The notes beneath the pieces were generated by a model that saw nothing but the letters and a program-made list of their open reading frames with translations, was not told the origin of the DNA and did not search any database. This document shows positions 4,945-8,064 of a stretch of DNA of 44,043 bases, piece after piece (within the stretch, counting starts at the first letter, position 1; every line of letters starts with the position of its first letter). The position numbers and the translations under genes were made by a program. This DNA is from Treponema sp. (GTDB taxonomy: Bacteria > Spirochaetota > Spirochaetia > Treponematales > Breznakiellaceae), in contig JAITUR010000049.1 in assembly GCA_031286205.1 (NCBI GenBank), forward strand, positions 1 through 44,043, in the 5' to 3' direction.

Positions 4945-5688
4945 TTACTGACCGCCCATGCTTCGCCTGATTCTGTCAATTCCGCGCTGGGCATCTGTTA
5001 ATTGAGAATTTAACGAGAGCGCCCTTTCGTATGCTTCGAGCGCGCTGGAAAGGTCTGTGGCATTTTCCCGCGCGTATGCAAGTCTTGCCCACCATGCCGC
5101 GTTTCCGGGAACCCAATGCACAGAAGTGGAAAGGGCTATATCCGCATGGCGGAAGCGCCCCTGCCTGATAAATATTTCTCCCATAAGATAGTAGACTTCC
5201 GCTATTCTGGAGCCTTCCGGGGCAAGAGCCGCATATTCCTGAAAAAATTGCAGGGCTTCGTTATTGTTGCCCATGTAATAATGTATTTCCCCAAGTATCT
5301 GAATAATTCTAATATCGCGATTATGAATAGCTCTTCCGGCACGGGCATAGCGCAGGGCTTCTTCATATCGATTTAACCGAATAAGACTCCAGCAAATTAC
5401 AACATGCGATTCCAGATTAACCGGATTTGCGGCTATTTCGTCGCGGCAAATTTGGACGGCTCTTTCAAGATTACCTGAACGATATTCCACCAATGCGTCA
5501 GGAGGTCTATTTTGCGAGTGGACGGGTATCGATATAAATAAAAAATAAAAAATGACGAACCCCACCCTAAAGGGCTGGGGTATCGTCATTCTCCCGAGGA
5601 ATTGCATTCGAGGTTTAATACGGGTATTAAACCCCTCAGCACGAATGAAAAACGCAAATAATTTGTTATTGTTAATTGATAGTTTCAT
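4945..5688 (-). CDS. TPR-repeat secreted protein with an element inserted in its signal peptide
   Basis: This 247-residue protein has at least three TPR units: from residue 67 (ALVEYRSGNLERAVQICRDE), near 106 (NRYEEALRYARAGRAI), near 140 (IHYYMGNNNEALQFFQEY), and a last pair with SALEAYERALSLN. The start is firm because its ATG overlaps the bactofilin stop as ATGA. The N-terminus is odd. MKLSINNNKLFAFF is followed by about 33 residues encoded by two DNA hairpins, and then by YFLFISIPVHSQ. Joining the two outer parts gives an ordinary signal peptide with cleavage before Gln. Internal Met residues inside the element could rescue translation. The role is unknown; context suggests an envelope or cytoskeleton partner of bactofilin. 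Confidence 0.85.
   Translation of the reverse strand: MKLSINNNKLFAFFIRAEGFNTRIKPRMQFLGRMTIPQPFRVGFVIFYFLFISIPVHSQNRPPDALVEYRSGNLERAVQICRDEIAANPVNLESHVVICWSLIRLNRYEEALRYARAGRAIHNRDIRIIQILGEIHYYMGNNNEALQFFQEYAALAPEGSRIAEVYYLMGEIFIRQGRFRHADIALSTSVHWVPGNAAWWARLAYARENATDLSSALEAYERALSLNSQLTDAQRGIDRIRRSMGGQ
5549..5647 (-). repeat. In-frame palindromic element (two adjacent hairpins)
   Basis: Hairpin A (5551-5590) has AATGACGA pairing with TCGTCATT, CCCCA with TGGGG and CCCT with AGGG, with a 2-base loop. Hairpin B (5605-5647) has outer arms CATTCG and CGAATG and inner arms GGTTTAATAC (5612-5621) and GTATTAAACC (5624-5633). Together they span about 99 bases, a multiple of three, without a stop in the TPR reading frame. 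The exact edges are uncertain because both flanks are T-rich on the coding strand. I see no second full copy in this window. Confidence 0.7.
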
Positions 5689-6047
5689 ACAGGATTTTTT
5701 CCTACCATTGTGCAGCGGCCGTTAAATACACAGCCTGTTTCCATATAAATTTCAGGAGCCGTAACATTTCCGACAAGTTTACCGGTAATTGTTACTTCTA
5801 CTTTTTCTACAGCAGTAATATCGCCTTTAACCTGTCCGCGAATTAATACGCGTAAAGCACGAATATTGGCATTTACTACCGCATTTTCGTCGATAACCAA
5901 AAGCCCTGTAGCATTAATTTCTCCCGAAACCTTGCCCCTTATTAGAAAGGGTTTTTCGAAGTGAAGAGTGCCTGTAAAGTCAATATCAGGAGACAGGATA
6001 GTATCAAAATCCGCATCTTCCATGAAGTCATTGTAAACATCTGTCAT
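5685..6047 (-). CDS. Bactofilin (polymer-forming cytoskeletal protein)
   Basis: This 120-residue bactofilin has the DUF583/PF04519 beta-helix pattern with hydrophobic and glycine spacing every few residues: DFTGTLHFEKPFLIRGKVSGEI, VVNANIRALRVLIRGQVKGDI, VEVTITGKLVGNVTAPEI. Flanking tails are short, as usual. Bactofilins self-assemble into filaments without nucleotide and organise cell-wall or envelope machinery in several bacteria, including spirochetes. It is the first gene of the bactofilin-TPR-mtaB operon, with an ATGA overlap to the TPR gene. No SD precedes ATG 6047. Instead an extended -10 box ends exactly 6 bases before it, predicting a leaderless message. Confidence 0.92.
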   Translation of the reverse strand: MTDVYNDFMEDADFDTILSPDIDFTGTLHFEKPFLIRGKVSGEINATGLLVIDENAVVNANIRALRVLIRGQVKGDITAVEKVEVTITGKLVGNVTAPEIYMETGCVFNGRCTMVGKNPV

Positions 6048-6053
6048 ATTAAT

Positions 6054-6082
6054 ATTATAACAGGTTGTGAAAAATATGAAAA
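6054..6082 (-). promoter_or_regulatory. Extended -10 promoter giving a leaderless bactofilin mRNA
   Basis: On the minus strand TGTTATAAT (TG at -14, TATAAT 6059-6054) stands 6 bases before the ATG at 6047. A partial -35 TTTTCA lies at 6082-6077 (17-base spacer). It is interleaved with the pta promoter. Confidence 0.6.
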
Positions 6083-6093
6083 GGGTGTATTAT
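6065..6093 (+). promoter_or_regulatory. Candidate pta promoter
   Basis: TTGTGA (6065-6070), a 17-base spacer and TATTAT (6088-6093) precede the pta SD and ATG. It overlaps the bactofilin promoter on the other strand, so simultaneous occupancy is unlikely. Confidence 0.4.
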
Positions 6094-6112
6094 ATGTAAT
6101 TAGGAGATATAA

Positions 6113-7120
6113 ATGAATTTTATTATTGATATGAAAGCAAAGGCTTCCGCCGCCTTAAAAAGGCTGGTTTTACCGGAAGGGACGGATAAAAGGATAGTCA
6201 GAGCCGCCAGAATTATTTTGGACGAAAGACTGGCATCCAGCGTTGCCTTGCTGGGTAAGGCAGCGGATATCCAGGAAGCTGCAAGAACCGAAGGAGTGGA
6301 TCTTGGCGGAATTGACATAATATCTCCTGCATCGGATCCTCGCTTAAGTAAATATGCCGATATTTACTACGAATTGCGAAAAAACAAAGGTATAACCCAT
6401 GAACAGGCAAGAATCGATATTGCCGACAATCTTCGCTGGGGCGCAATGATGATTCGTCAAAATGATGCCGATGCCATTGTCGCAGGCTGTGAACGAACAA
6501 CCAGCGATGTACTTAGGGCGGGACTTTCCATTATTGGCACTACCCCCGGCTTAAAAACCGCTTCTTCCTGTTTTGTTATGACAGGTTTAGACCCTCAATA
6601 TGGGGTAGATGGAGCGATGATCTTCAGCGATTGCGCGGTTGTTCCAAATCCGACTGCCGACCAGTTAGCGGATATTGCCCAAAGCGCCTCCATGAGCTGC
6701 AGGGAATTTTTAAACGCAGAGCCGATTACCGCGCTTTTATCTTTTTCTACCAAGGGTTCCGCCGCTCATGATGATGTTGTGAAAGTTCAAACTGCGGTAG
6801 ATATTTTAAAAGAAAAAAAAGTTGATTTTATATTTGACGGCGAATTACAGGCAGATTCTGCTCTTGTTCCTGCCGTATTGGAGGCAAAAGCGGCAGGGAG
6901 TCCCTTGCTTTCCGGAAAAAGAACTGTAAATACCCTTATTTTCCCCGATTTAGACGCGGGAAATATTGGCTATAAATTGGTTCAACGGCTGGGAAAAGCT
7001 CAGGCATTTGGACCCTTTTTACAGGGATTTTCCAAACCAATAAGCGATCTTTCCAGAGGCGCGTCTGTTGATGATATCGTAACAACTTGCGCGGTAACAT
7101 TGGCAAGAGTAAAAAATTAA
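6113..7120 (+). CDS. pta: Phosphate acetyltransferase
   Basis: This 335-residue single-domain phosphotransacetylase interconverts acetyl-CoA and acetyl phosphate, feeding acetate kinase for substrate-level ATP in fermentation. Motifs include LVLPEGTDKRIVRAA at the N-terminus and DADAIVAGCERTTSDVLRAG. SSCFVM and FSDCAVVPNPTADQLADIA lie mid-protein, with LLSFSTKGSA further on. FDGELQADSALVP and NTLIFPDLDAGNIGYKLVQR are the acyl-CoA binding face near the C-terminus. The length fits the short class without the N-terminal regulatory domains of E. coli Pta. TAGGAG lies 7 bases before ATG. It has its own promoter, divergent from bactofilin, and no terminator was obvious before the next gene. No ackA is in the window. 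Confidence 0.95.
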   Translation: MNFIIDMKAKASAALKRLVLPEGTDKRIVRAARIILDERLASSVALLGKAADIQEAARTEGVDLGGIDIISPASDPRLSKYADIYYELRKNKGITHEQARIDIADNLRWGAMMIRQNDADAIVAGCERTTSDVLRAGLSIIGTTPGLKTASSCFVMTGLDPQYGVDGAMIFSDCAVVPNPTADQLADIAQSASMSCREFLNAEPITALLSFSTKGSAAHDDVVKVQTAVDILKEKKVDFIFDGELQADSALVPAVLEAKAAGSPLLSGKRTVNTLIFPDLDAGNIGYKLVQRLGKAQAFGPFLQGFSKPISDLSRGASVDDIVTTCAVTLARVKN

Positions 7121-7212: not shown

Positions 7213-8064
7213 ATGGCAACTGAAAAAAAGCCGGCAGTTAAGAAACCTGCGGCGAAGAAACCGGCGGCTAAAAAGCCTGTAGCAAAAAAACCCGCAGTTA
7301 AGAAACCTGCGGCTAAAAAACCGGCAGCGAAAAAGCCGGCAGCGAAAAAACCTGCGGTAAAAAAGCCGGCAGCGAAAAAACCGGCAGCGAAAAAACCAAA
7401 TATCGGGGGCACAACAGCAAAAACCGCGGCAAAAAAACCGTTAATTAAAACATCCGACAAACCGGCAAAAACAACTATGCCTAAAGAAGTTCTTGATCCA
7501 AACATTAAATTCCGCAATTTGTTTGATGCTTATGCCAAGAATAAACTTCCGTTTGCTCAAGGTTATATTATTTCATCGTTCTTTAGTGAATTAAATGCCT
7601 ATTCAGTTTACGAAGTTGTATCCTATGCAGGCGTAAAAGAAATTTACCCGTCCAGCGAGGGGCTTCAGTTTGTTTGCGGCGGCAAAAAATTGTACATTTT
7701 AGTGGAACATGATACATACGAGAAAAAGTTTATAGAACCTGTCAGCAGAAGCAGGTCGGACGGCGAACAAATACCAAAGCGTTTTAGCGAACTGGAAACC
7801 TTTATTGCAAGAAACCAGTACAGAATCATGGTAGCAAAAGAACCCAATGAACTTACAGGTTCGTTTACCGTTCTTAAACCGACAAGCATTAACTTTTCTG
7901 TAGTATTTTATCAATTAGACGATGTTTATAAGTCTATTGGTGCTTTCTTTGTAGAATCACTTAACAGACAGCGAAAAGTACCGGAAGCCGATGCAAAAAA
8001 AGCTTCTCAGTTAATCGTCCAAACCATAGAAAAAACAATGAGCTTTAAGGGTGAGTACGCATAA
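7213..8064 (+). CDS. Basic KPAA-repeat protein with a unique C-terminal domain
   Basis: Residues 5-62 of 283 consist of about twelve pentapeptides of the type KKPAA or KKPAV, giving an H1-histone-like, strongly basic and disordered tail. A second Lys-rich linker follows (TAAKKPLIKTSDK). From about residue 93 a globular, mixed alpha/beta domain begins (NIKFRNLFDAYAKNKLPF, GLQFVCGGKKLYILVEHD, SINFSVVFYQLDDVYKSI). I do not recognise it. AAGGAGGG is 6 bases before ATG; a clean terminator follows. Similar tails in other bacteria bind DNA or polyphosphate, so nucleic-acid binding is a reasonable inference, while the C-terminal domain stays unassigned. The DNA coding the tail is an imperfect 15-bp tandem repeat and may vary in length. 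Confidence 0.85.
   Translation: MATEKKPAVKKPAAKKPAAKKPVAKKPAVKKPAAKKPAAKKPAAKKPAVKKPAAKKPAAKKPNIGGTTAKTAAKKPLIKTSDKPAKTTMPKEVLDPNIKFRNLFDAYAKNKLPFAQGYIISSFFSELNAYSVYEVVSYAGVKEIYPSSEGLQFVCGGKKLYILVEHDTYEKKFIEPVSRSRSDGEQIPKRFSELETFIARNQYRIMVAKEPNELTGSFTVLKPTSINFSVVFYQLDDVYKSIGAFFVESLNRQRKVPEADAKKASQLIVQTIEKTMSFKGEYA
7222..7404 (+). repeat. 15-bp imperfect tandem repeats encoding KKPAA units
   Basis: About twelve 15-base units close to AAAAAGCCGGCAGCG are arranged head to tail inside the coding sequence. Synonymous drift (GCG/GCA/GCC, CCG/CCT/CCC) makes the copies imperfect, but several adjacent ones are nearly identical, which favours slippage. Confidence 0.85.

Follow-up and report, generated by a model that had tools for sequence, protein, structure and literature searches.

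The DNA analysed here, referred to as the window, is a stretch of 44,043 nucleotides from Treponema sp. (contig JAITUR010000049.1). On its reverse strand it carries a gene for a TPR-repeat protein next to a bactofilin gene, and the signal peptide of the TPR protein contains an insert that separates the native n-region from the hydrophobic core (Table 1). Two hairpins lie within the insert, with arms that are 85% complementary at the right end (5551-5563 and 5578-5590) and 100% complementary at the left end (5612-5621 and 5624-5633). The predicted RNA fold of the hairpin region reaches -44.2 kcal/mol on the gene strand (z = -5.2), the opposite strand gives z = -4.4, and none of 200 shuffled sequences was equally stable in either case. 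A preliminary description of this DNA had proposed the two hairpins and a TPR start codon overlapping the bactofilin stop codon through ATGA, and both are present. It had also given the element a length of 99 bp or 33 codons; the boundary rule of the repeat family gives 93 bp and 31 codons, but the statement that the frame is kept with no stop codon stands. A search of Rfam with positions 5000-6500 gave no match. Elsewhere in the window, 7213-8064 has an N-terminus of KKPAA repeats and a match to histone H1-like HC2 that is below its cut-off.

Table 1. Position and properties of the genes and repeat features at the TPR locus.
Feature	Position	Strand	Remarks
TPR-repeat protein with N-terminal signal peptide	4945..5688	-	247 aa; insert = residues 16-46; strongest hydrophobic 12-mer = residues 45-56
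Bactofilin	5685..6047	-	Stop codon overlapped by the TPR start codon (ATGA)
Putative PATE-like element, IS200/IS605 type	5551..5643	-	Net length 93 bp (31 in-frame codons); boundaries taken from a sister copy whose empty site is base-exact
Element ends, gene strand			5' (left) CGTGCTGAGGGGTTTAATACC; 3' (right) GGGGTTCGTCATT
Target site TTCATT (gene strand; family consensus TTTATT)	5644..5649	-	Directly 5' of the element; 225 left flanks
Left-end palindrome GGTTTAATAC / GTATTAAACC	5612..5633	-	
Right-end hairpin, + strand arms AATGACGAACCCC and GGGTATCGTCATT	5551..5590	-	Compensatory changes in the family

Comparison with related genomes confirms the earlier claim of a palindromic element inserted in frame in this signal peptide. 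Strong orthologues of the TPR protein were found in 20 of 23 other same-genus genomes (G001, G004 and G016 gave weaker matches only). The insert is absent from all 20, their N-termini are by eye ordinary signal peptides, and the bactofilin gene adjoins the TPR gene in each of them. A blastn search with the hairpin region (E <= 0.01) found matches in 12 of 39 genomes, the window's own included, with further copies in that genome. The preliminary description had made its claim depend on these two comparisons, and neither went against it: the insert is not universal in orthologues, and other genomic copies exist.

The insert belongs to a dispersed Treponema family. A 26-base terminal pattern, allowing up to three mismatches, was found in 19 of the 39 same-genus genomes, the window's own among them, with 43 matches in genome G050; the reversed control pattern was found in none of the 39. 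An exact pattern scan of 84,980 species, each represented by one genome, returned at least 112 stretches. Among the matches listed, 79 of 80 contigs have spirochete titles, which include T. vincentii, T. putidum, T. socranskii, Brucepastera, and Treponema and Spirochaetes assemblies. The one other listed match, on an Anaerolineales contig (L171), lacks the hairpin and looks like a chance match. No viral contig with the repeat was found. The repeat comes mainly in lengths of 53-54 bp and of about 120 bp, and forms near 72 and 141 bp also occur; the long form has an inner GC hairpin that the window copy lacks. When 40 long copies were aligned, changes on both sides that preserve pairing were seen at least once in 11 of the 20 predicted stem pairs. 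The family consensus ends, read by eye, are AATCAAC and CACGAAT, so there are no terminal inverted repeats. Palindromes lie near the termini, and the repeat is too short to encode a transposase. The motif CGTC occurs only in one subfamily, which includes the window copy, where it lies inside a stem; it is absent from the main consensus. No convincing gene was found between repeat ends at loci L040-L257, and at L172 the ends are 334 bp apart, spanning Ns. Four copies (L216, L233, L236 and L239) stand in head-to-tail order directly behind what seems to be the terminus of a further copy (CACG-AATCA). At L099 in genome G011, a Y1_Tnp-type gene lies near the palindromes TTTCACGTGAAAC and GTGCCTGGCACC, which are a different repeat.

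The boundaries follow from genome G050, where a CBM48 protein carries in its signal peptide a copy that is absent from the orthologues in G023 (92% amino acid identity) and G052 (90%). The site is base-exact: ATGAAAACAATTATT/GCCGCC when empty becomes ATGAAAACAATTATT, a 63-bp sequence ending in ATT, and GCCGCC when filled. A single ATT in the empty site corresponds to one at either end of the filled site, and the insertion is placed after ATT. Because of the ATT at both ends, boundaries of 5554-5646 in the window are as valid as 5551-5643, and they were taken from the family rule since the nearest TPR orthologues are too diverged for a base-by-base empty site. The flanks of other copies are asymmetric. 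Positions -6, -5 and -4 are T in 211, 223 and 211 of 225 left flanks, numbers that are inflated since the search patterns required AATRAA or allowed three mismatches, with ATT within the matching rule. To the right, the 144 flanks that follow ATT are close to random. AAT is present at both ends in 95 of 127 copies, which is likewise not independent, as ATT/AAT was part of the matching rules. With this reservation about ATT, the asymmetry would favour a fixed target, as opposed to a target duplication.

A likely source of the repeat is found among IS200-type TnpA transposons. Y1_Tnp matches (E <= 1e-20) occur in 47 of 291 genomes of the order, and the class of the intact TnpA protein L413 in 23 of 390 genomes (E <= 1e-25). 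In the window's own genome, which is 94% complete, neither the PF01797 (Y1_Tnp) profile nor a search for an L413-like TnpA gave a match. The sequence GGTTTAATACC, with at most one mismatch, lies upstream of a TnpA gene in 19 of 32 rows, two of which repeat the same locus, and many of the 19 continue with ATACC, a hairpin and a terminal ATT, the layout of the repeat on the gene strand of the window. Among 55 distinct TnpA genes, the repeat profile matches just upstream on the expected strand for 10 at E <= 1e-3 and for 20 at E <= 0.1; the other 35 gave no upstream match even at that threshold. The best match (1e-8) lies 31 nt from the intact TnpA gene of L454, and all 10 genes with a match at E <= 1e-3 are in the class at least 45% identical to L413. 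Of 18 TnpA left ends listed and read by eye, 8 have TTTATT, 4 TTTAAT and 3 other variants, and 3 are unreadable. The right-end part of the profile matches downstream of four TnpA genes at E <= 1e-3 (best 6e-5), a likeness that is modest and partly that of a generic GC hairpin. Both ends are matched at L451 and L453, whereas the upstream match at L442 and a fifth right-end match, downstream of L413, may be neighbouring copies of the repeat. None of the 55 genes has ends identical to those of the repeat, which counts against this origin, as do the 35 genes lacking an upstream match and the missing TnpA in the window's own genome. Together these matches indicate that the repeat ends are probably related to those of IS200-type TnpA (Y1 HUH) transposons, more strongly at the left end than at the right. 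Two other sources were considered. The RAYT-like elements of G050 were rejected as mobiliser since they have termini of their own (CTAAACTTGACCC / GGGTCAAGTTTAG at L119, L121, L124, L137, L138 and L140), distinct from those of the repeat. Several of them are inserted in or beside its hairpins, as SMR-A elements are on Haloquadratum PATE palindromes (PMC3119063). An integron attC site was dismissed on inspection because the core boxes did not fit.

On this basis we read the repeat as a probable internally deleted, trans-mobilised IS200-type element, that is, a PATE as in Haloquadratum. As far as they are described in the available text of PMC3119063, the PATEs of Haloquadratum walsbyi share with it near-terminal palindromes, a lack of terminal inverted repeats and a length too short for a transposase. 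They have ends related to IS605-type transposons, where those found here resemble IS200-type TnpA transposons, their very short terminal-only forms are 52 bp as compared to 53-54 bp, and their palindromes are struck by other mobile elements, as are the repeats in G050. The Treponema family differs from that account in its host, its IS200-type TnpA, and its in-frame copies in proteins, notably in signal peptides. IS200/IS605 insertion sequences (PMC7290912) also carry hairpins near their termini, which are not inverted repeats, and insert 3' of a short target, but the Treponema repeat is without a transposase gene. PATEs are known from a haloarchaeon and from Halanaerobium (PMC3119063, PMC7290912). 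Among the papers listed by searches of the open-licence PMC literature, we recognised no report of a concentration in signal peptides, of this repeat or of PATEs or Rickettsia palindromic elements (RPEs) in signal peptides.

How often the repeat resides in genes was examined by a profile scan of the collected loci, which gave 251 distinct copies, 207 of them with enough length and flank. This census replaced a looser one by regular expression (343 matches, 301 with flanks, 80 spanned by an ORF) that included chance matches. A spanning ORF was found for 41 of the 207 copies and, by the rule used, for none of the other 166. The 41 comprise 19 accepted as real genes by Pfam, orthologues or ORF length, a choice made post hoc, in which L061, L198, L265 and L356 are weaker, and 22 set aside as antisense, spurious, or in a gene starting after the element. 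Eight of the 19 hosts have the copy in a signal or lipoprotein peptide: the window TPR protein, ZnuA (L351), LPP20 (L223), CBM48 (L277), SBP_bac_3 (L294), SBP_bac_5 (L304), a protein with a weak Wzi match below its cut-off (L077), and a lipoprotein without Pfam match that has two orthologues lacking the insert (L284). The other eleven are L058, L061, L072 (PrmC), L074, L158 (DegT aminotransferase), L198, L224 (histidine kinase), L265, L324, L343 and L356. L343 gives the window's own genome a second in-frame copy; the protein concerned is matched in 34 other genomes, and all 11 aligned orthologues are without the insert. The ZnuA insert was not seen in 19 listed orthologues, among which variation of the n-regions prevents a base-exact placing of the site. 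Several of these orthologues (L378-L396) have long, variable n-regions that look derived from repeats (HAEARRR, APLRLC, VPLCLR), which suggests that other repeats may also land in signal peptides. A further copy in the window's own genome (L003:909-979, contig C35) apparently forms, by eye, the C-terminal end of an open frame.

The frequency of signal peptides among these hosts is higher than expected. By a heuristic rule applied to 822 ORFs, which gave 133 signal-peptide regions, signal peptides cover 1.4% of the coding bases and contain 2.8% of all target sites, and 8 of 19 copies exceeds both (post hoc binomial p about 2e-8 against target sites; 8 of 30 would give 1e-6). TTTATT has a density of 2.16/kb on the signal-peptide coding strand (22 sites in 10,203 nt), about three times the 0.69/kb found both on the template strand of these regions and elsewhere; before removal of loci fetched for TPR, CBM48 and ZnuA orthologues the comparison was 2.72/kb against 0.73 and 0.67/kb. 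A few-fold excess in signal peptides, part of the bias, is thus accounted for by the higher density of TTTATT. The rest plausibly comes from tolerance, as the insert would be removed with the signal peptide. Orientation is also biased: 7 of 8 signal-peptide copies share the orientation and frame of the transposon (RAEGFNT...FRAGLLI), an arrangement in which the hydrophobic core stays intact and is preceded by an Arg, versus 2 of 11 other genic copies (post hoc Fisher p = 0.005).

In view of the above, the window copy is very probably a transposase-free PATE derived from an IS200/IS605 element, presumably pasted by TnpA in trans and tolerated in a signal peptide. TnpA acting on single-stranded DNA would have pasted the element 3' of a T-rich target in signal-peptide codons. 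At 93 bp without a stop codon, the element would allow the TPR gene to be translated through it. The product of the gene strand (RAEGFNT...PFRVGFVI) would provide a basic n-region with Arg at its end, then a few hydrophobic residues continuing into the native h-region, and signal peptidase should then remove the whole insert and leave the mature TPR protein unchanged. Together with such tolerance, the density in signal peptides of TTTATT, which reads Phe-Ile in frame, would account for the repeated presence of exported proteins among the in-frame hosts.

Several alternatives can be considered. Translation could by-pass the insert by starting at an ATG inside it (residue 28 or 34), giving a signal peptide of normal length; from residue 34 the protein would begin with MTIPQPFRVGFVIFYFLFISIPVHSQ, 26 residues with Arg and core. 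We regard this as unlikely, since a Met is present in the insert of only 2 of 7 other signal-peptide copies (L351 and L304), the native ATGA start is kept, and a GGGAG is separated from the second ATG by just 1 nt, but it does not conflict with a transposon origin. A somewhat less probable option is that insertion inactivated export and made the TPR gene a young pseudogene. The long basic n-region with Pro and the strong hairpin close to where the message begins would fit this, and the preliminary description had likewise predicted impaired export. However, the frame is intact, and in all eight exported hosts, which keep frame and core, the strongest hydrophobic 12-mer lies beyond the insert's end or overlaps that end, and the net charge ahead of the 12-mer is +2 to +9, so that the prediction of impaired export is not supported. 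The CBM48 gene of G050 shows 60 synonymous and 14 non-synonymous codon differences from G023 (233 codons) and 52 and 19 from G052, compared to 20 and 12 between G023 and G052; this synonymous excess would fit a maintained gene, although it includes time before insertion. It is equally improbable that the element is a mobile signal-peptide module that repeatedly rewrites Treponema signal peptides and possibly tunes export, an idea that derives from its coding content in the favoured orientation and frame (basic stretch, Arg, Gly-Leu-Leu-Ile), which is appropriate to an n-region followed by the first part of an h-region and would allow repeated rewriting through TTTATT-targeted transposition of the IS200 type.

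The least probable option, which we consider very doubtful, is a selfish coding repeat like the Rickettsia palindromic elements, or a REP, that spread independently of IS200-type transposons: in-frame residence of palindromes in many unrelated ORFs is indeed described for Rickettsia (PMC10969869, in part) and, as REPs, for several other bacteria (PMC3733652, in part), and the latter excerpt reports CGTC-type REPs in Spirochaetes among other phyla, but the ends and target found here resemble those of TnpA transposons, most copies have no spanning ORF, and CGTC lies in a stem where those REPs have an unpaired tag and stems of 8-9 bp. The comparison with Rickettsia made in the preliminary description thus stands for in-frame behaviour and is not supported for kinship, the Treponema family being set apart, by the descriptions through which RPEs are known here, by another bacterial group and IS200-like ends. 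GTAG/CGTC REPs with RAYT transposases, as the same part of PMC3733652 presents them, are also hairpin repeats that sometimes lie inside ORFs, but the Treponema repeat has a longer two-hairpin unit and no unpaired GTAG/CGTC tag. The suggestion that no spirochete case had been described has to be narrowed accordingly, since CGTC REPs are reported there; nothing on spirochete ORFs was met in that portion of the paper.

Under the preferred reading as a transposase-free PATE, a Treponema family is added to the in-frame palindromic elements, and a candidate class of mobilising transposase is indicated. The combination of a target sequence and removal with the signal peptide would offer a testable reason why remnants of transposons persist in genes for exported proteins.
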